NCBI RefSeq assembly: GCF_900474185.1
Contig: NZ_UCNW01000004.1
Span: 1-64,000 of the forward strand
Reading direction: 5' to 3'
Length of the DNA stretch: 64,000 nucleotides
Source of the DNA: Synechococcus sp. UW69
Lineage (GTDB): Bacteria > Cyanobacteriota > Cyanobacteriia > PCC-6307 > Cyanobiaceae
A program made the translations under genes and the position numbers. Positions 6,404 to 14,297 of the stretch are shown one piece after another (the stretch's first letter is position 1; every line of letters starts with the position of its first letter). Below the pieces are notes generated by a model. The model saw only the letters and a list, made by a program, of their open reading frames with translations. It was not told where the DNA came from and ran no database searches.

Positions 6404-7729
6404 TCAGAGCGCCAAGCTCTCCGGGCGGGTCTCGATCAGTTCAGCGAGATCCTTCAGGAATGCAGCGCCATCGGCGCCGTAAATCACCCGGTGATCCGCC
6501 GTCAGGTTGACCTGCATCTGACGCTTGACGGCGATGGACCCGTCTTTGCCCGCCACCACCGTGGGCCGTGAGGCTGCAACAGCAAGGATGGCTCCCGTGC
6601 CTGGGGGAAGGATCGCGTCGAAGCGATCAACCCCGAACATGCCGAGATTGGAGAGGGTGAAGGTTCCCGTGGAATATTCCTCGGGCTGCAACTGCTTACT
6701 GCGTGAGCGCTTGACCAGATCGCCCCACTGACGCGACATCTCATAGAGGTCGGTGCGATCAGCGTTGCGCAGCACAGGTGTGATCAAGCCACCATCTTCC
6801 ATCGCGACAGCCACGGCGACGTTGACCTCAGCGGGATAGGCCATTCCAGCCGCGGTCGTGGCGGCATTCACCTGAGGGTGACGCGCCAAGGTGACGGCCA
6901 CCGCCTTGGCAAGCAACGCCGTCATCGTGACGCCCTTCGGCTTCACCTGTTTGTAAAAGGCATCCAGCTTGTCGGTGGTGATGGCGTAGCCGACGCGGAA
7001 GCAGGGAACCGCCAGGCTCGCCTCCATGTTTTTGTTCACCGCACCCTGCAGGGTGTTGAAGGCCACGGTCTCGCCGGGCCGACCAAAGCTGTTTCCAGCG
7101 GACGCAGCAGGGGCCGAGGGTGCAGCCGCAGGCTGACCCGTAGCCGCAGGAGCGGAACCCTCCGCCACACGCGGGACAGAGATGGGCTGTCCAGAGGCTT
7201 GTTCGACGTCTTCGGCCTGAATCCGGCCATGGGGCCCGCTGCCACGCACCGTGGCCAAATCCACACCCATCTGGGACGCGAGCTTTTTGGCCCGGGGGCT
7301 CGCCACGATGCGGCCATCGTTCACAACCGGCGCCGACGGAGCAGGGGCGGCGATAGGTGCTGGAGCTGGAGCAGGAGTCGGAGCTGAAGCCTGAACCGCA
7401 GCTGGTGTGGGAGCCGGTGCCGGTGCAGGGGCTGGTGCAGCCGCAGGGGCGCTGGGAGCCTTGGCCTGCGCTTCAGCAATCTCTGCTTCGGTTTCGACAA
7501 TCAGACCGATGGTTTCGCCTACCGGTGCCGTGCTGCCGGCCGGCATCAAGACGGCGGCGAGATAACCGTCCTGAAACGACTCAACGTCCATATCTGCTTT
7601 GTCGGACTCAACGACAAGGACGGACTCACCCCGAGCCACCTTGTCGCCGGGCTGTTTCAGCCATTCCACGATCTTCCCCTCCGTCATGGTGGAGCTGAGG
7701 GCAGGCATGAAGATGTCTGTGGTTGCCAT
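6404..7729 (-). CDS. pdhC: Dihydrolipoamide acetyltransferase, E2 of pyruvate dehydrogenase
   Basis: A 441-residue E2 that transfers acetyl groups from E1 to CoA. Residues 1-78 form one lipoyl domain with the lipoylated lysine at Lys44 in VESDKADMDVES. A long Ala/Pro linker (about 85-135) precedes the E3/E1-binding domain (ASPRAKKLASQMGVDL to GRIQAEDVE, about 140-178). The catalytic domain ends with LTADHRVIYGADGA, carrying the active-site His. The ATG at 7729 has AGGA six bases upstream. Its first 16 bases are the attL copy of an integrative element, so its leader and the A of its ATG come from foreign DNA. Confidence 0.96.
   Translation of the reverse strand: MATTDIFMPALSSTMTEGKIVEWLKQPGDKVARGESVLVVESDKADMDVESFQDGYLAAVLMPAGSTAPVGETIGLIVETEAEIAEAQAKAPSAPAAAPAPAPAPAPTPAAVQASAPTPAPAPAPIAAPAPSAPVVNDGRIVASPRAKKLASQMGVDLATVRGSGPHGRIQAEDVEQASGQPISVPRVAEGSAPAATGQPAAAPSAPAASAGNSFGRPGETVAFNTLQGAVNKNMEASLAVPCFRVGYAITTDKLDAFYKQVKPKGVTMTALLAKAVAVTLARHPQVNAATTAAGMAYPAEVNVAVAVAMEDGGLITPVLRNADRTDLYEMSRQWGDLVKRSRSKQLQPEEYSTGTFTLSNLGMFGVDRFDAILPPGTGAILAVAASRPTVVAGKDGSIAVKRQMQVNLTADHRVIYGADGAAFLKDLAELIETRPESLAL
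7713..7728. repeat. attL core, direct repeat within pdhC start
   Basis: ATGTCTGTGGTTGCCA, identical to 13689-13704. On the minus strand it encodes pdhC codons 2-6 and the last two bases of the start codon. It is the junction between native pdhC and the integrative element. Confidence 0.85.
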
Positions 7730-7760
7730 TCAGTCCTAATTGCAGGGGATCTGGGGGTGC

Positions 7761-7791
7761 TGTCCAACTGTTTGTCCAACAGTTGTCCAAC
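7761..7791. promoter_or_regulatory. Left-end TGTCCAAC boxes (probable integrase arm sites)
   Basis: Three copies of TGTCCAAC start at 7761, 7773 and 7784, spaced 12 and 11 bases, about one helical turn. The first two begin 32 and 44 bases from the attL core. The same word occurs at matching distances inside the right end. Regular phasing on one face of the helix fits arm-type binding sites for the tyrosine integrase. This is inferred from position and repetition. Confidence 0.6.
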
Positions 7792-7848
7792 TCATTCGAC
7801 GACTCTAAGGCGCGAAAGACCCCCATCCTGCAGTAATGACAGGCGGAT

Positions 7849-7902
7849 TCAGGTCTTTCCTCGTATGACCTCAAACACGATGCAAAGTGGATTGATCAAC
7901 AC
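7849..7902 (-). pseudogene. Remnant 3' end of a DUF4338 gene
   Basis: Read on the minus strand this gives VLINPLCIVFEVIRGKT and a TGA stop. It aligns without gaps to the C-terminus of the intact DUF4338 protein (MLSDPLDIVLDVIRGGS, stop) encoded 970 bases to the right. Over 45 bases the DNA copies match at about three positions in four. Only the tail remains; upstream sequence is replaced by the sulfotransferase region. The element therefore once had another DUF4338 copy at its left end, or duplicated this segment when cargo was acquired. Confidence 0.7.
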
Positions 7903-7944
7903 CAAGTTTCTTCTCTGGCAGAGATCTTTTGATAGAAAACAAGA

Positions 7945-8709
7945 TTACTCCGCAGAATTTCGCACGAAACGCAAGACTTTCCTCCTCAACTTTTCAAAAG
8001 GTGATTGTCGATTCTCTTCATAGTATTTATCCCTTACTTCATCAGGAGAAACAGAAGCAAGTTGATGAATTTCAAATTCACGTTTAAGGCAAATTTTGAG
8101 TCTTTGCATTAATTCATCGCTTATTTTTTTAGGGTCACCACTCAAAGGGATTGATTTGTTTAGCGTTTCCAAACAAATTTGCTTGCCACATCTTTCCGAC
8201 AGAAACTCCTCCGCCTCATTGATTTTTTCTATTGCAAACACTTTTTCGCAAATTAACTCTCGGTCGTTATATATGTAACCAACTTGAGATCTGACAAATG
8301 CATGAGGCTTCATAGACAAACCCTCACGGAGTTCAATAACATCTTGAACGTAATTTTCAAAAGAGATACCTATAGTACTTTGTGGTGTTCCCTTTGCTTT
8401 CTCACCCTGTTTATACTTCCAGTGCGAATAAAGACGATCAAAAGGGTCTCTAACTATGCAGAAAACAGTAAAGTCAAGATCTGGGTAAGTTGAATTTACA
8501 ATAGGCATTACCCCCTCCTTCAAGAACTTTGCATCGATATGTTTCGGAAGACCAAAAGGTGGCGAAGGGAAATTCTTGGGACTCATTATTGGTTCGCATT
8601 GGCGCAGAAAACTTTCAAGAGAACTGCTTCCGCATTTAGGATTAGCAAGAAAGATGGTTTGCAGAGATGGGTTTACAAACATATCTCTAAATAATTGCAA
8701 TTGTATCAC
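7945..8709 (-). CDS. Sulfotransferase family protein (cargo)
   Basis: A 254-residue cytoplasmic-type sulfotransferase of the carbohydrate/family 2 group. LANPKCGSSSLE at about residues 21-32 is the 5'-phosphosulfate loop of the PAPS site, and CIVRDPFDRLYSHW at about 84-97 is the 3'-phosphate site. Substrate is unknown; in this family it is often a sugar on a surface glycan. The DNA is clearly AT-richer than the chromosome, as expected for transferred cargo. It lies between the DUF4338 remnant and the intact DUF4338 gene. An alternative start is the ATG at codon 10, which gives a more usual N-terminus. Confidence 0.85.
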   Translation of the reverse strand: MIQLQLFRDMFVNPSLQTIFLANPKCGSSSLESFLRQCEPIMSPKNFPSPPFGLPKHIDAKFLKEGVMPIVNSTYPDLDFTVFCIVRDPFDRLYSHWKYKQGEKAKGTPQSTIGISFENYVQDVIELREGLSMKPHAFVRSQVGYIYNDRELICEKVFAIEKINEAEEFLSERCGKQICLETLNKSIPLSGDPKKISDELMQRLKICLKREFEIHQLASVSPDEVRDKYYEENRQSPFEKLRRKVLRFVRNSAE

Positions 8710-8820
8710 ACACCAGATTCCGAGGAAAAACTCACAAGAATCGACAAAATATTTCCTTAATAATACTATTCCGCTTTCGATAAAATGATTGACTAATTAT
8801 TTTATCGCAATAATCATCTG

Positions 8821-9561
8821 TCAAGAACCTCCTCGTATGACATCAAGCACGATGTCCAACGGATCACTCAACATCTGATCTCGTCTCTTGCATAAATCTC
8901 TTTTGAGATCAAGATCGTTCCACGCAGCTGCATAGGAATCACAGAGTTCTCTCCCTTTGATCCGAAGGCAGTAGACCAACTTTTTGGACCGAAGAGTTTT
9001 GTCTTTGATCTCACGACCACGAGCATTGGTTTTTCCATATCCACGGGTGATACCAACCATTTCCCAGTTATCAGCGCGATAACAAACACCATTTCTGGTC
9101 TTTCCATTCCATAAACGTTCTTCGACGACAAAGGTCTCGAACCCTGCTATCGGAACTCCATATAGTGTTTCCCAGTCCTCCATTATCCGTTTTCTCCAGA
9201 TAGAAAGAACAATCGTTGCTAGATTTGGTGCGGGATACTCAAGACGAAAAACATTGTTGTTGACGATGCTATTGAGTTGTTGTGTTTTGACTTCCGTCTC
9301 CTCCGCAAGACCAAAGAACTCGTCCCGTGCCTGATTGGCAAAGACTGCGGAAGCACCACCAATGATTCCAACGACCTCAGATCCGTAGAAGATCAGGTAC
9401 TGGAGTTGTTGTCCCATCGTCCCTCTGTCAGGGATGTAGTGGCTGCGACGGAACTTTTGATAGAGGGGGTTACTGCTCTTGACTAGTTCCAACCTCACAA
9501 GGTCTCTCTGGGCGACGGGAAGGGGGTCTGGAGGCGAACTAGGTGTCAGTAACACCCTCAA
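8821..9561 (-). CDS. DUF4338 (DruA-like) protein
   Basis: A 246-residue protein with the conserved DUF4338 pattern: HYIPDRGTMGQQLQYLIFY near the start, RDEFFGLA, a LNSIVNNNVFRLE block, PNLATIVLSIWRKRIMEDW, GFETFVVEE, then CYRADNWEMVGITRGYGK. DUF4338 is the domain of DruA from the Druantia anti-phage system and is also widespread alone near mobile elements. No other Druantia genes (large helicase DruE and partners) are present, so a defence role cannot be assumed. The nominal TTG start at 9561 overlaps the upstream ribbon-helix-helix gene by 23 bases; a GTG at 9555 is an alternative. Coupled translation is likely. Confidence 0.75.
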   Translation of the reverse strand: MRVLLTPSSPPDPLPVAQRDLVRLELVKSSNPLYQKFRRSHYIPDRGTMGQQLQYLIFYGSEVVGIIGGASAVFANQARDEFFGLAEETEVKTQQLNSIVNNNVFRLEYPAPNLATIVLSIWRKRIMEDWETLYGVPIAGFETFVVEERLWNGKTRNGVCYRADNWEMVGITRGYGKTNARGREIKDKTLRSKKLVYCLRIKGRELCDSYAAAWNDLDLKRDLCKRRDQMLSDPLDIVLDVIRGGS

Positions 9562-9733
9562 GCAATTTCACGATGCTTCTGCCGCGTCCTGTGCCGTGTT
9601 CTCGTCCATACGCATCGAGTGCCTCTATGAACGGTTCAGGCAGAGAGACTTGAATTTGTCTTGCAGGTGGATGTGAACTCTCAACAAACTTCCCGCCTTT
9701 GCCACGGTTCTGATGGTCCTTCGAGAGTGGCAC
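9539..9733 (-). CDS. Small ribbon-helix-helix-like protein
   Basis: A 64-residue basic protein. After a polar N-terminus, PARQIQVSLPEPFIEALDAY followed by a Gly/Arg turn and RGRSIVKLLEG fits the strand-helix-helix of CopG/Arc-type DNA-binding proteins. It starts with GTG at 9733 and its end overlaps the DUF4338 gene, suggesting they form one operon. A 21-base imperfect palindrome related to a perfect one at 11830 sits just upstream of the start, a natural place for an autoregulatory operator. Function is inferred from fold-like pattern only. Confidence 0.55.
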   Translation of the reverse strand: MPLSKDHQNRGKGGKFVESSHPPARQIQVSLPEPFIEALDAYGREHGTGRGRSIVKLLEGVTDT

Positions 9734-9737
9734 GTTA

Positions 9738-9758
9738 CGGACTCATACCAGTCGGTAT
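9738..9758. promoter_or_regulatory. Operator-like imperfect palindrome
   Basis: CGGACTCATACCAGTCGGTAT lies immediately upstream of the small DNA-binding protein gene. It matches 17 of 21 positions of the right-shifted perfect palindrome at 11830-11851. Two related copies near two recombination/regulatory genes suggest a shared protein-binding site. Confidence 0.4.
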
Positions 9759-9831
9759 CCAAACCTATCGTCCAAGTACTCCAGGTGCCATCATCAGTTA
9801 TCTATTGAAGCAACAATCTTGACACTTATAC

Positions 9832-9860
9832 TTGACAAATATCATTAACCTGAATATAAT
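9832..9860 (+). promoter_or_regulatory. Perfect consensus sigma-70 promoter with no gene behind it
   Basis: TTGACA at 9832-9837, a 17-base spacer and TATAAT at 9855-9860 match the bacterial housekeeping consensus exactly. Another TTGACA lies 13 bases upstream. The nearest + strand gene of useful length starts at 10754; only a five-codon frame (MCFEH) at 9895 follows directly. Transcription would run antisense into the small-gene operon at 10010-10495. The 276 bases at 9734-10009 hold no other gene that I can support. Confidence 0.65.
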
Positions 9861-10009
9861 AAATCTGTAAGGATTCAAGAGAACAATGTGCTTTGAACAC
9901 TAGAGACTGGATTGATACCAGGAATTTTTTTGAAAATGATGTATTGAGTTGTTCCGATCGTCCGTAACACTTTGTAGGTTGACAGTATCTTTGATTTTAG
10001 TTTTACCTG

Positions 10010-10141
10010 TTACGTCTTATCGAACTTATCTTTGATCAGTTGTTCAATGAGTCTTTCGTAGTTCTGACTAGGCAAACTCATCTTTTTAATCAGTTCTCTC
10101 GCTAGCACTTCTGATTTATCTGAAAGTCTAACTGTTTTCAT
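10010..10141 (-). CDS. 43-residue ribbon-helix-helix-like peptide
   Basis: Short frame starting with ATG at 10141: MKTVRLSDKSEVLARELIKK, followed by a Ser/Leu/Pro turn and YERLIEQLIKDKF. One strand plus two helices is the layout of minimal ribbon-helix-helix antitoxin or repressor proteins. Its start overlaps the end of the preceding 65-residue gene by 14 bases. It is the last of three small, overlapping genes on this strand. There is no identifiable toxin motif beside it, so a toxin-antitoxin role is only a possibility. Confidence 0.55.
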   Translation of the reverse strand: MKTVRLSDKSEVLARELIKKMSLPSQNYERLIEQLIKDKFDKT

Positions 10142-10325
10142 CTTCGATCTCCCTGTAAACCTGTTTTAGTTCTGCTTCAAGTAGTTTCATTCTTTGTTTG
10201 TCGATCTCTTTCATCAGAAACGACACTTGATTATTCTTCTCTTCAAAATCACCATGACAGATTTCATCTAGTTTGTTGTAGAGGTAATCAATCTTTTTTC
10301 TTGTAGCGGTAGTTTCGTCTTTCAC
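10128..10325 (-). CDS. 65-residue charged helical protein, unknown function
   Basis: GTG-started frame whose product is almost entirely Lys/Glu/Leu-rich (IDYLYNKLDEICHGDFEE, then FLMKEIDKQRMKLLEAELKQ), predicting a helical hairpin or coiled coil. It overlaps the upstream 57-residue gene by 4 bases (GTGA) and the downstream 43-residue gene by 14 bases. That coupling is better evidence for a real gene than the sequence itself. I do not recognise a family. Confidence 0.5.
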   Translation of the reverse strand: MKDETTATRKKIDYLYNKLDEICHGDFEEKNNQVSFLMKEIDKQRMKLLEAELKQVYREIEDENS

Positions 10326-10495
10326 AGTGCCGCTTTCAATGCGTAATACTTCTCTCTGACTAGATTCTTGTGCAGTTGAGAATAGTTGTACCCGTAATGA
10401 TCCATCAGGGAACCTTCCATCAATGACAGTCTTTCAATCTCCTGTTCCTGATAAGAAACCATTTTTTTATTGGGTTGCTGCTTTGTTGGTGTCAT
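10322..10495 (-). CDS. 57-residue polar protein, first gene of small operon
   Basis: ATG-started frame (MTPTKQQPNKKMVSYQEQEI to the end KYYALKAAL) with an AGAAAG Shine-Dalgarno-like stretch about nine bases upstream. It is polar, Tyr-rich and has no recognisable domain. Its TGA overlaps the GTG of the next gene. The 258-base gap upstream (10496-10753) separates it from the divergent zinc-finger gene and holds two inverted repeats, so promoters for both directions are probably there. Confidence 0.45.
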   Translation of the reverse strand: MTPTKQQPNKKMVSYQEQEIERLSLMEGSLMDHYGYNYSQLHKNLVREKYYALKAAL

Positions 10496-10567
10496 GTTGA
10501 TTCTTTCTAGATGATTGATGTAGATAAGTTTTTAGGAAAAACATAAGTGGCGATAACAAATCACCTA

Positions 10568-10638
10568 AGACAACAAGAGGAGTCATATTAAAATCACCCT
10601 TTTGTTGTCTACTAGTTATACGATTGAAGTGACTTCAA
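10568..10638. promoter_or_regulatory. Inverted repeats in divergent intergenic region
   Basis: Two structures lie between the small operon and the zinc-finger gene. The first is a perfect 9-bp inverted repeat, AGACAACAA at 10568-10576 and TTGTTGTCT at 10612-10620, with a 35-base interior. The second is a 15-base palindrome TTGAAGTGACTTCAA at 10624-10638. Position between diverging genes fits operator sites. A TATAAT at 10694-10699 could be the -10 box for the + strand gene, though I see no good -35 box. Confidence 0.4.
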
Positions 10639-10753
10639 CGTTTTGGCGGTAACTCTAAGCAGGACTCTTAATAAATTTCTGAACAATACTATCTATAATA
10701 ATTCTATCTTCCAGATATAAATACGTCAGAGAACAATCACAAAAGGGATTGAA

Positions 10754-11143
10754 ATGAGTTGGAACTTTTACACGAATGAATCAATAGAAGAACCCTTTGT
10801 TCATGATGTTGGTCGTTTCATGAATGCCATAGAGAATCCCAGGAAATTCAATGGCAGAGTCGTTTACCAAAAAGGTGAGTGTCCAGTCTGCAAAAGGAAG
10901 ACAGCAGTGTTGGAATTCTCACCTCGAACAAACACCTGGATGATGGCGTGTCCTGTTCAGGTCTGTGGTCTCCGAACAATGACGTTGCACAAGGCAATCA
11001 AGAGTTACTTTCCGACCCTCCAGGAGGACTGGAGACGTGCGAGATGGACTCCAACGTATTCAGGAGACTGGTTACCGATCAGGAACAGAAAGAGGTCAGT
11101 GCCAGAGGGTGATCAAGAAACAGAGACAGGTTCATGTGTTTGA
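10754..11143 (+). CDS. Zinc-finger protein of the integrative element
   Basis: A 129-residue protein. Residues about 37-63 hold GECPVCKRKTA and then ACPVQVCGL, a C-x2-C...C-x4-C zinc-binding pattern on a short beta-rich core, reminiscent of primase-type zinc ribbons. The C-terminus is basic with Trp-rich segments. No catalytic primase motifs follow, so it may be a stand-alone DNA-binding protein. The ATG at 10754 has AAGGGA about five bases upstream. Its last 31 bases overlap the convergent serine recombinase gene. Function is not known. Confidence 0.6.
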   Translation: MSWNFYTNESIEEPFVHDVGRFMNAIENPRKFNGRVVYQKGECPVCKRKTAVLEFSPRTNTWMMACPVQVCGLRTMTLHKAIKSYFPTLQEDWRRARWTPTYSGDWLPIRNRKRSVPEGDQETETGSCV

Positions 11144-11721
11144 ACGATGCGTTGCACCATCGATCGACTCATACCCATTGATCTAGCGATCGTTCCATAT
11201 CCCTCACCAGCAGTACGTTTTTTCATCACCTCTGCTGCTTGATGTTCGGTATAGGTCTTTTTCCGACCGAATTTCACCCCACGGGACTTAGCGACTTCCC
11301 TGCCTTCAGCGGTTCTGGATTTGATCTGATCCAGTTCCTGAGATGCCGCATACCCCAGGACCGACACGATGAGCATCGTGATTTCCTTTGGCATCGCAGT
11401 GGTATCAAGACGTTTGTCGAGAGTCCTGATATGGATCCCACGTTCTAACAGGTTGCTTACCTCGTTCACCATCCCCAGGAAAGAACGAGATAAACGGGAG
11501 AGTTCAGAGATCACCAGTGTGTCTCCCTCGACCATCTCGTCTAAGCAACGACGTAGTTCAGGACGGGTGTTCCAGTCACTAGTCCCTGTGATCTTGTCTC
11601 CATAGATCCGTTCGCAACCTGCACGTTCTAAGGCGAGCACCTGTCTCTCCTGATCTTGTAGGTCGGTGCTACACCTCCACACTCCAAAAACAGTCATTGC
11701 ATGGGTGTCTGTATCGGACAT
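11113..11721 (-). CDS. Serine recombinase / resolvase-invertase
   Basis: A small serine recombinase. GVWRCSTDLQDQERQ carries the catalytic Ser of the family's (Y)xRxSTxxQ motif; the middle has DTLVISELSRLSRS and a SRTAEGREVAKSRGVKFGRK segment, and a C-terminal helix-turn-helix is seen in GYGTIARSMGMSRSMVQRIV. It cuts and rejoins DNA at paired sites, as resolvases or invertases do. The frame is open to a GTG at 11748, but a strong inverted repeat spans that start, so the ATG at 11721 (203 residues) is preferred; the ATG at 11697 is another option. Confidence 0.88.
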   Translation of the reverse strand: MSDTDTHAMTVFGVWRCSTDLQDQERQVLALERAGCERIYGDKITGTSDWNTRPELRRCLDEMVEGDTLVISELSRLSRSFLGMVNEVSNLLERGIHIRTLDKRLDTTAMPKEITMLIVSVLGYAASQELDQIKSRTAEGREVAKSRGVKFGRKKTYTEHQAAEVMKKRTAGEGYGTIARSMGMSRSMVQRIVQTHEPVSVS

Positions 11722-11744
11722 TTTAATACTGCATTCCGATACAG
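11709..11744. promoter_or_regulatory. res-like inverted repeat at serine recombinase gene
   Basis: Perfect 10-bp inverted repeat CTGTATCGGA (11709-11718) and TCCGATACAG (11735-11744) with 16 bases between. A third CGATACAG lies at 11798-11805. Resolvases commonly bind inverted 12-bp subsites placed at their own promoter, so this is a good candidate site for the adjacent recombinase. Assignment rests on position and symmetry. Confidence 0.55.
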
Positions 11745-11748
11745 TCAC

Positions 11749-12098
11749 TTCTCTGTTGGCACGGTTAACAAGGTGGTGTATTGGAAATCAAAAAAATCGA
11801 TACAGGATCCCAATGGTTTGAACGTTCCCAACCGACTCATATGAGTCGGTTTCAAGACGACTCGGATGACCACTCTTTTGTCCACACCAGAGAGGCGACT
11901 AGAAGACCCCCAGATAGGAATTCCAGATAGGAATTCCAGCCGCGTCCAAGACCTATGGGTTTTGTCCTCCTACTGCCTTCTCTGTCCCTCCTCTGTCTCC
12001 TCCTGAGGCGATATCCCCCTACTGATCGATGGAGTGATGACCTCATTGATCTGTGTCAGAGAAACACTCCCTGAAAAGAGGATCAGGAAGAACAAAGA
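11749..12098. other. Non-coding stretch between recombinase and integrase genes
   Basis: About 350 bases without a supportable gene. It holds a perfect 22-bp palindrome at 11830-11851 (half-site AACCGACTCAT), a CGATACAG copy at 11798, a 13-bp tandem duplication (CAGATAGGAATTC at 11911-11923 and 11924-11936) and a pyrimidine-rich tract around 11960-12010. A 64-codon frame here on the minus strand is low-complexity Arg/Gly-rich and not credible. The region probably combines the recombinase control/crossover sites with the end of the integrase transcript. Confidence 0.5.
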
Positions 12099-13556
12099 CT
12101 ATTCTTCAGTTTGTAGTTGGTCTTCTGGTTTCAAAGTCTTCTTGTGCATTCCAAGTTCATCAATATTCAATAAATTATTGATCCGATAGTAGGTACTCTC
12201 AATTTCCGACTCGGAAGTACCACAATTGTCAGCAATAACTCTTATGCGAGTGTCATTCAAAAGATTGTGTGTGATATGTGTTGAACGCAATGAGTACAAA
12301 GTGAATCGACTGTGATCAGTAGGTTTTGTTTGTCCTTTGTAGAAATCCGTCAAAGCAGTACGAACAAGTTCCTCGTACTTTTTTCTGATCGTCTCTGAAC
12401 TATAAACTCCGACTTCCCATCGGACTTCATCCAACTTTCCTTCTACCTCGAACTTCTTGATGCTTCTCTTGTCTTCCTTATTCATGGTATGGAAAAGGGG
12501 ATTCAAGAATAGACATGTGTCTTTATTCGATTGTGGTAGTAATGGAATTTCCCCTTGAAATCTCCAACGATAATTTGTGATCTCTCCGCTAGCAACAATC
12601 AAGTTATGTTCTTCGATTTGTTTGTTTCTCAATTTGATGCCTTTATTCAAATGCGATTTCACAGAGTTCAACCAATGACCATTCATCACAACAGTTCTCT
12701 TACCTCTTTTCGTCAGAGGACTTACGCGGACTAAACCCTTTAACTTGCCGTCAGGCATCTTTCTAGTTTCGAGATCACCCAAACGCAACGTCATCGCTTC
12801 GTGAGGACGACCACCAAAGTGATACATAAAAAATATCCAGTTGTAGATCCAACGTCTCCTCCACTTCTTCAGTTCATCATCACCCTCTTTAATTTTCACC
12901 CATTCATTAAGAGCAGACTTCAGTGCTTCCCACTCTTCTGGCATGAAAGCAGGATTGGCATCCTCACGGAACTCTTTTCTATTCCGAAGTTTTTTAATGA
13001 AGGAGAATTCATTAGCATCAAGAATACTCTTCTTGACCATCCAACCCAAGAGTTCATTCAATGTCGAGAGATCGGAATTAATCGTGGAGACAGATAAACC
13101 TGCTGTAGCAGAATTCCATTTCCCCTTTGTCTCAACTTTTCTGTAGTAAAGACCATACTCTTCAAAACTTTCACGTTTAATATCGCCAATATTCAAAACA
13201 CCAACCTTTGTGGCGTAAGGAATTATCCTTTGGCGAATACGTTGAGAATATGATTTAACAGCACTCTCTTTAATCTCACCGATATCCGCTTGTTCCAGTT
13301 TCCATTTCAAAAACTCTTCACAGACAGTGGCGAAACGATACTTTTTATTTTTGGAACGAAGTGGTTGATTGATTGTCGTTGCATAAACATCAAGTGCTTT
13401 GTCGTGAGCAATCTTGAGATCTGTTGTACCTAATGAAATGTTGCTGTACTTCTTGTTCCCTCTTGGAATGCGAAGCGTCAAATACTCACGATCGGCATAA
13501 GCGACGATGTGTGCCCGTCCGTTCAACGTTTCCTCTTTGAACTGGATCTTGGGCAT
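12099..13556 (-). CDS. int: Tyrosine site-specific integrase
   Basis: A 485-residue phage-type integrase. The N-terminal half has a core-binding SAM-like region. In the catalytic half FGGRPHEAMTLRLGD supplies the first Arg, a Lys-rich beta hairpin follows, FTLYSLRSTHITHNLL supplies the second Arg box (Tyr where His is most common before x-x-Arg), and ESTYYRI carries the nucleophilic Tyr. The ATG at 13556 gives a standard N-terminus; a TTG nine codons upstream is also open. It lies about 130 bases from attR, the usual location, and should catalyse integration into pdhC. AT-richer than chromosome genes. Confidence 0.92.
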   Translation of the reverse strand: MPKIQFKEETLNGRAHIVAYADREYLTLRIPRGNKKYSNISLGTTDLKIAHDKALDVYATTINQPLRSKNKKYRFATVCEEFLKWKLEQADIGEIKESAVKSYSQRIRQRIIPYATKVGVLNIGDIKRESFEEYGLYYRKVETKGKWNSATAGLSVSTINSDLSTLNELLGWMVKKSILDANEFSFIKKLRNRKEFREDANPAFMPEEWEALKSALNEWVKIKEGDDELKKWRRRWIYNWIFFMYHFGGRPHEAMTLRLGDLETRKMPDGKLKGLVRVSPLTKRGKRTVVMNGHWLNSVKSHLNKGIKLRNKQIEEHNLIVASGEITNYRWRFQGEIPLLPQSNKDTCLFLNPLFHTMNKEDKRSIKKFEVEGKLDEVRWEVGVYSSETIRKKYEELVRTALTDFYKGQTKPTDHSRFTLYSLRSTHITHNLLNDTRIRVIADNCGTSESEIESTYYRINNLLNIDELGMHKKTLKPEDQLQTEE

Positions 13557-13565
13557 CAGGGGAAG

Positions 13566-13655
13566 TGTCCAACTTCCTGCCAAACCACTCAGCAGAAAGC
13601 ACCGCAGGCACTAAGTGTACCCACGGTGCGTTTCAATGTCCAACCACTGTCCAAC
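13566..13655. promoter_or_regulatory. Right-end TGTCCAAC boxes (probable integrase arm sites)
   Basis: TGTCCAAC occurs at 13566-13573, 13637-13644 and 13648-13655. The two nearest attR end 44 and 33 bases from the core, mirroring the 44 and 32 of the left end. The far copy overlaps the integrase leader and might also regulate it. Confidence 0.6.
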
Positions 13656-13688
13656 TGCATAAACCCTTGCGAACACTGACACTAGGAA

Positions 13689-13704
13689 ATGTCTGTGGTT
13701 GCCA
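13689..13704. repeat. attR core, direct repeat
   Basis: Second copy of ATGTCTGTGGTTGCCA, 57 bases from the YlqD gene stop. Beyond it lies native chromosome. Joining this flank to pdhC across the repeat recreates a continuous ylqD-pdhC junction. Confidence 0.85.
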
Positions 13705-13761
13705 AAACCGTCTCCGAAGGGGCAGATCAGGGGAGTTTACGAGTCAGCAGAAGGAAGCCGA

Positions 13762-14205
13762 TCAGGCCTCCTCGATCGACTGAACAACGCCGTCCTTCAC
13801 AACGATGGCCACCTGCATCTTCTGAACCAGGTTGTCGCCGACCTTGAGCTCACACGTGCTCTCCAGCTGCCCCTGCTCAACGATCTGATCCATGTCCAGT
13901 TCACGGACCTGGGCCTGCTGCTGAAGCAAGTTGCGCTTCTGCTCCTCCAGTTCGGCACGCTTGGCCGCCACCTGCTGTTGAATCTGCGCAACCTGGTCCT
14001 GCACACGGGGATCCAGCGGATTGGCGCTCTGACGACGCACCTGATCCACGACGTCCTGACCCTCCTGTTCCAGCTGCGCCAGCTGCTGGTCGGCAGTCGC
14101 AATACCGCTGCTGAGCTCGCGCTCTGCTTCCTCTTTCCAGGTGGGCGTCACCACGGCTCGGACGGTGATCGGACGCTTGATCGTCAAGGAGGTGCCGTCG
14201 GACAT
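13762..14205 (-). CDS. YlqD-family coiled-coil protein
   Basis: A 147-residue protein with a basic N-terminus (SLTIKRPITVRAVVTPTWKEE), a central Gln/Glu-rich coiled coil (about 30-100) and a C-terminal beta-like tail (LKVGDNLVQKMQVAIVVKDG). This layout matches the YlqD family, whose function is unsettled. The ATG at 14205 is preferred over an in-frame start seven codons upstream. On the minus strand pdhC should have been the next gene, but the integrative element now lies between. Confidence 0.7.
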   Translation of the reverse strand: MSDGTSLTIKRPITVRAVVTPTWKEEAERELSSGIATADQQLAQLEQEGQDVVDQVRRQSANPLDPRVQDQVAQIQQQVAAKRAELEEQKRNLLQQQAQVRELDMDQIVEQGQLESTCELKVGDNLVQKMQVAIVVKDGVVQSIEEA

Positions 14206-14297
14206 GGATTCTTGGGAGACGGCCAAAGCGTGTCAGCACTTCCGCGTGTGGTCAATCACCGGTAAACCGACCGCCTCACAAGCGTCTTAAGCCGCGT

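Follow-up and report, generated by a model that had tools for sequence, protein, structure and literature searches.

We analyzed a window of 64,000 nucleotides (nt), which is the whole stretch of DNA under study, from the marine cyanobacterium Synechococcus sp. UW69 (the host, G000). In it, an integrative element lies between pdhC, which encodes pyruvate dehydrogenase E2, and ylqD. A sequence-only reading of this DNA had described a 16-bp direct repeat bounding an AT-richer block of ~6 kb, with an integrase by one end and no tRNA, and all of this was confirmed. The repeat, ATGTCTGTGGTTGCCA, is identical at 7713-7728 and 13689-13704. The GC content is ~0.37-0.50 inside the block vs ~0.57-0.68 outside (500-base steps; the two steps straddling the ends are intermediate), and no tRNA genes were found in the 64,000-nt window. 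The element is defined by the following features:

6404-7729, minus strand: pdhC (pyruvate dehydrogenase E2; Pfam 2-oxoacid_dh, Biotin_lipoyl and E3_binding), with an ATG start from the element
7713-7728, minus strand: att repeat at the pdhC junction
12099-13583, minus strand: tyrosine integrase of 494 amino acids (aa), adjoining the ylqD end, with a PHROGs integrase match and catalytic-type residues
13689-13704, minus strand: att repeat at the ylqD junction, an exact second copy
13762-14226, minus strand: ylqD, the upstream neighbor of pdhC (Pfam YlqD)

Read on the pdhC strand, the repeat is TGGCAACCACAGACAT. It had been taken for codons 2 to 6 of pdhC; codons 2 to 5 are indeed included, but the repeat really runs from the TG of the start codon through two bases of codon 6 and thus overlaps the start codon. 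Occurrence in many unrelated places was checked for, and the 2.37-Mb host genome contains only two exact copies (one more match, with 2 mismatches, lies elsewhere). By our own rough arithmetic, the chance of any second copy of a 16-mer in a genome of this size is about 1 in 1000. The integrase is intact; it stayed under the Pfam cut-off, yet it matched a PHROGs integrase family at 6.5e-22. Its residues R259, K292, R433, and Y465, which we take to be the tyrosine recombinase catalytic set, are invariant across an alignment of 10 integrases.

Next to the occupied site, we looked at empty ones in related genomes. The joined window flanks recreated the ylqD-pdhC site as it stands empty in sister genomes, aligning without gaps across 188 bp at identities of up to 96%; the best 8 compact sites among those listed matched at 93-96%, also gap-free. 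In the host genus, ylqD is present in 32 of 34 genomes, and 23 of the 29 genomes with a readable pdhC start have a compact ylqD-pdhC junction with a TTG start, which are the empty sites that the sequence-only reading had led us to seek. The other six start with ATG (G000, G003, G027, G030, G012, and G021), and all except G021 have the integrase. A -10-like box lies between -60 and -30 in 68/74 compact sites with TTG, and GGAG precedes the TTG in many compact sites. An integrative element of the tyrosine-recombinase type is characterized by direct att repeats and by relatives in which the site is cleanly empty; both were found.

Related integrases occupy the same junction in many genomes (the host is counted throughout). 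At 1e-40, the integrase was detected in 7/34 host-genus genomes, and at E<=1e-15 in 17/400 family genomes, representing 8/59 genera. Sixteen of these 17 genomes have it at the pdhC junction: 15 beside ylqD, plus G334, in which the contig starts inside the integrase and the other end is at pdhC. The exception, G035, has a 31% relative on a 6.9-kb contig; it is the sole one of its genus, and ylqD was not seen. In G012 and G030, integrase and pdhC are on separate contigs. Three named records (Prochlorococcus AG-355-P16 and AG-349-G15, Synechococcaceae AG-426-L07) also have an integrase between ylqD and pdhC, with 37-38% identity to that of the window; closer relatives include the marine Synechococcus records MU1642 and AG-683-C23. 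In total, 16 family genomes and 3 records were placed at the site. The search for other elements with a related integrase at this junction thus yielded 18/19 placed copies beside ylqD and one ending at pdhC, with relatives at ~37-99% identity. The ylqD-pdhC stretch in occupied genomes ranges from 4.6 kb (G027) to ~21.7 kb (G116).

A single 16-bp repeat in a single genome is modest evidence before such a comparison, and it would also fit an ordinary island that inserted once, with the repeat arising by chance and pdhC being a mere neighbor. Diverged integrases (~37-99% identity) at one junction in several genera and gap-free empty sites contradict this; a one-off insertion is already refuted by the recurring site, and we consider it virtually untenable. 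Because empty sites and related integrases were found at one junction in many genomes, the integrase family is, judged by position, site-specific for the 5' end of pdhC. This bears out the earlier proposal that the 5' end of a housekeeping protein gene serves as the site, and elements of the SXT/prfC and dusA type likewise insert recurrently at one protein gene's 5' end. Integrase and host divergence disagree: G000 and G031 share 51% identity in the integrase vs 96% in ylqD, and G240 and G319, of one genus, 45% vs 88%. This supports horizontal movement of the element between lineages.

We then compared the sequences on both sides of the insertion. The following features were read from the sequence, and the arm-like sites are putative:

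7732-7737, minus strand: element-supplied Shine-Dalgarno-like AGGACT upstream of the new ATG
7761-7790, minus strand: three direct integrase arm-like sites (TTGGACA) at -38, -50, and -61 from the pdhC start
7802-7807, minus strand: element-supplied -10-like box TAGAGT at -78
13712-13715, minus strand: displaced native pdhC Shine-Dalgarno-like GGAG
13734-13739, minus strand: displaced native pdhC -10-like box TAAACT

Integration leaves pdhC cut off from its native start codon (TTG), ribosome site, and -10-like box. The element end brings a leader with arm-like sites and often a -10-like box, and the first PdhC residues are barely altered. Of the idea that integration rewrites pdhC expression, one part stands at the sequence level, namely that the control region is replaced; that expression changes upon integration we infer from this replacement, and the -10-like box of the element may be an active promoter.

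The start codon follows occupancy. Among occupied genomes and records with a pdhC start read, 13/14 have ATG, and only G138 has TTG. TTGGACA-like direct sites upstream of the start are typically at -38, -50, and -61; the three named records have them at -41 and -53. A TTGGA exactly 33 nt before the pdhC start was found in 20/400 family genomes, 19 of them with ATG, and a reversed-pattern control gave zero; the pdhC start pattern itself was found in at least 285/400. A start table was compiled from 135 genomes or records; by design, it covers the ATG genomes listed but just some of those with TTG. In this table, ATG is used by 22/23 genomes with the integrase or the -38 arm vs 3/81 compact sites (Fisher p 2.6e-18, ignoring relatedness). 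The remaining 31 genomes are mixed (15 ATG, 16 TTG).

Box motifs were counted in 28 element ends, including six added by hand as suspected relics. A TA[AG][AG][ACG]T box was present in 18/28, vs a shuffle mean of 4.5 and a maximum of 10 in 300 shuffles; this count is descriptive only, since the motif was chosen after the sequences were seen. The box is at -78 in five element ends and at -101/-102 in eight, integrase-less genomes included. These positions bear on the alternative that the element is neutral to pdhC, which would be transcribed by read-through from element genes, with box and ATG being incidental. In the window, druA and the sulfotransferase are co-directional with pdhC, making read-through possible, and a sigma-70 consensus scan detected no promoter on the pdhC strand of the element end. 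However, the box recurs at these positions in 13/28 element ends, the ATG is present in 13/14 occupied junctions read, and the only ~0.4 kb between ylqD and pdhC in integrase-less G194 and G251 leaves little room for such genes. We regard a neutral element as rather unlikely.

The element end is also retained where no integrase was found. Ten genomes from 8 genera keep the -38 arm without an integrase (G162, G067, G306, G194, G251, G231, G249, G394, G226, and G307), 5/10 of them being below 90% complete. When these ten were searched again at 1e-3, no integrase was found near pdhC; the sole match (25%, in G251) is half a megabase away. The whole ylqD-pdhC interval was read in seven relics, and six have no second core copy at <3 mismatches. 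The G249 relic retains a native-looking -10 box after ylqD. The G394 relic still has its second core, differing by 1 mismatch and bearing an ATG; it looks as though an older scar had been invaded by a later element. The median spacer is 407 bp in integrase-less ATG genomes (23 measured) vs 58 bp in TTG genomes (87 measured). Loss of the element apparently makes the replacement control region at pdhC permanent. A different filling was seen in G021 (L101 1985-9169), in which an 11-kb ylqD-pdhC insert contains a 2394-aa open reading frame (ORF), an ATG start, and a degenerate arm-like TTGGCCA. No integrase match was found there in a search at 1e-3, and the insert is probably a relic refilled with other genes.

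Long ATG spacers without an integrase might instead result from ordinary intergenic growth. Several such genomes are without a recognizable arm site (e.g., G127, G086, and G059), and long armless spacers, of 153-2449 bp, are also found in seven genomes of genera g28 and g68 that start with TTG. In contrast, the ten integrase-less genomes hold the arm at exact element spacing, and relics of g28, g53, and g68 have GCA as codon 2, as the elements do, while most TTG sisters listed have GCC. Intergenic growth is thus quite improbable for these spacers. The TTG genomes with armless spacers of 0.15-2.4 kb (L195, L202, L204, L208, L209, L216, and L143) are not explained by the element.

At the ylqD side, the remnants of the native pdhC start precede the integrase:

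13682-13705, minus strand: seven-codon stub on the native pdhC start, TTG GCA ACC ACA GAC ATT TCC TAG
13637-13654, minus strand: two P'-side arm-like sites at +51 and +62 from the displaced start codon
13599-13629, minus strand: terminator-like hairpin of 13 pairs between the displaced pdhC start and the integrase, containing the -10-like TACACT (13614-13619)
13566-13572, minus strand: third P'-side arm-like site, at the integrase 5' end

The native-start stub ends within 15 codons in 10/12 loci read. Past the stub, arm-like sites are mostly near +50/+62 and +121/+133, not every one in each locus. Putative arm-type direct repeats are thus found on both sides of the core. A -10-like box is at +85/+86 in 7/17 attR regions, and the hairpin of the window spans that box. 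Terminator-like hairpins were detected in 9/17 attR regions vs 2.3 expected from mononucleotide shuffles and in none of the other 8, using our own script, which is looser than the hairpin search in the window. We also considered that the element merely borrows the pdhC promoter for its integrase. This is weakened by the terminator-like hairpin between the two in the window.

The two core copies differ in some genomes. G100 and G116 have GCC as codon 2 on the ylqD side, as in most sister sites, and GCA on the pdhC side, and in G138 the copies diverge after codon 5. This places the strand exchange probably within codons 3-5. At L179 (G394) and L171-L173, the ylqD-side core copy also starts with ATG, as if elements had re-entered sites already changed by an earlier element.

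Several results weigh against site-specific integration with replacement of pdhC control. The genomes are related, and the counts are therefore not independent events. Integrase copies are broken by stops or split in G010, G279, and G344. Besides G138, which is occupied and retains TTG, three compact sites have ATG (G087, G128, and G077), and the long TTG spacers without arms among the mixed 31 genomes remain outside this explanation. Moreover, 10/28 element ends have no -10 motif as defined, and to these are added the negative consensus scan in the window and the failure of two exact attP-like patterns to reveal an attP form in viral contigs.

With these points considered, we are highly confident that a site-specific integrative element targets the pdhC start and replaces native signals, its end staying after deletion of the body. 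In the proposed mechanism, the tyrosine integrase, with a lambda-like layout including arm-type sites, would recombine attP with attB over the pdhC start and first codons. The insertion displaces the native promoter, ribosome site, and TTG, whose remnants form a short stub cistron upstream, followed (in the element of the window) by the terminator-like hairpin and then the integrase. The opposite element end provides a -10-like box, a leader, and an ATG in their place, so that PdhC would still be made with an almost unchanged N-terminus. Int presumably binds the arm sites, and the elements may excise and move today. The body would later be lost by deletion rather than clean excision, leaving the element end as the adjacent control region of pdhC. 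A bolder proposal, which we judge slightly below even, is that repeated invasion and decay have permanently rewired pdhC: in several picocyanobacterial lineages it would be expressed only from a captured, arm-bearing element end, and in occupied cells Int binding could couple pyruvate dehydrogenase expression to element state.

The remaining genes of the element are as follows:

7945-8709, minus strand: sulfotransferase cargo (Pfam Sulfotransfer_2)
8821-9561, minus strand: DruA-family (PF14236) protein (Pfam), frame-shifted vs the longer ORF of the sister element in G003
9539-9733, minus strand: small ORF corresponding to the N-terminal portion of the DruA ORF in G003
10754-11143, plus strand: small cysteine-rich (CPxC...C) protein, with similar ORFs in other elements and a weak primase match
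11113-11748, minus strand: serine resolvase/invertase (Pfam Resolvase, HTH_7)

For the greater part of their length, the elements of the window and of G003 share ~97% identity, yet their sulfotransferases are different and differently placed. The single 303-aa DruA ORF of G003 corresponds to two ORFs in the window (8821-9733), whose frames are set apart by a one-base difference. Beside pdhC, where G003 has druA itself, the window repeats (at 7858-7930, 73%) 73 nt of the druA 3' end (8830-8902), and the two copies flank the sulfotransferase. This arrangement suggests that the sulfotransferase came with, or beside, a second druA copy. Four window proteins, one of them the DruA-family protein, were run through PADLOC and gave no match. 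The CPxC...C protein, picked by eye, is present in six other elements (G003, 95% identity; the remaining five, 17-22%), and three cysteines are invariant among these proteins. In a cargo scan restricted to hand-picked ORFs, type I restriction-modification genes were found in the G138 and G116 elements, sulfotransferases other than that of the window in G003 and G334, and a ParB/methyltransferase protein in G240. Such type I gene sets, with R, S, and M, are at L099 7239-13601 and L100 4167-10460.

What kind of element this is was examined by further searches. No relative of the integrase was found in phages and plasmids or, by profile scan, in viral contigs, and the element DNA had no match in phages. 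Including the attP-like patterns, these searches gave no relative pointing to a phage, plasmid, or viral origin. In a PHROGs scan of 9 element proteins (6 from the window, 3 from relatives), 8 matched, none in a structural or packaging category; a prophage or phage satellite was thus rejected. Pfam detected no relaxase or conjugation genes among 8 window element proteins, smaller ORFs and oriT not being searched. Tycheposons of Prochlorococcus are picocyanobacterial integrative elements with tyrosine recombinases, variable cargo, and tRNA gene sites. The pdhC elements resemble them in host, recombinase type, and variable cargo but, unlike them, insert at pdhC, and in the window, which has no tRNA, this assignment was rejected. 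In a check for tRNA ancestry near distant integrases (~22-45% identity), no tRNA was found at 13 loci within the available flank of 1.5 kb or less. The host genome has two further, distant integrases (24%) at G000:C8:475630-476310 and G000:C2:143708-144259.

In the literature searched, which excludes most subscription papers, there was no description of a pdhC target or of this integrase family, and the main text of a marine Synechococcus island paper contains neither "pdh" nor "pyruvate dehydrogenase" (PMC2441476). Elements of this kind are already known; what that literature did not show is the pdhC target, the host group, or the integrase family. Our results add a family across picocyanobacterial genera, some members with restriction-modification and sulfotransferase cargo, to the elements that rebuild host gene control. 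Start codon and arm spacing provide a simple, imperfect sequence signature of present and past occupancy. Therefore, how mobile elements affect the regulation of a central enzyme, which supplies acetyl-CoA, is testable across natural strains, including lineages that keep only the element end at pdhC.

SXT at prfC and IMEVchUSA3 at dusA supply new promoters and N-termini (PMC8409611), and dusA islands replace the 5' end of their target (Farrugia 2015, PMC4482086), with a dusA'-lacZ fusion giving reduced but real expression (PMC8409611, PMC4482086). Since 5' targeting and promoter replacement are known from these systems, the pdhC case is not unprecedented. The SXT/R391 integrative and conjugative element at prfC and the pdhC elements both use a housekeeping gene's 5' end as their insertion site. 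SXT is conjugative and large (~100 kb) and alters the target N-terminus, whereas the ylqD-pdhC stretch is 4.6-21.7 kb and mainly the start codon and leader change; host group and target gene also differ. With the dusA islands, which provide a new promoter and reading frame, they share 5' end targeting and a fixed family-wide site, but target and hosts are different and the junction amino acids at pdhC are nearly unchanged. SpyCIM1 at the mutL 5' end likewise changes target expression from a 5' end integration, its integrated form blocking transcription and silencing mutL (PMC4689407), whereas the pdhC element carries replacement signals at the sequence level. The retained element end without an integrase, seen among the pdhC elements, appears to be the most unusual part of the finding.

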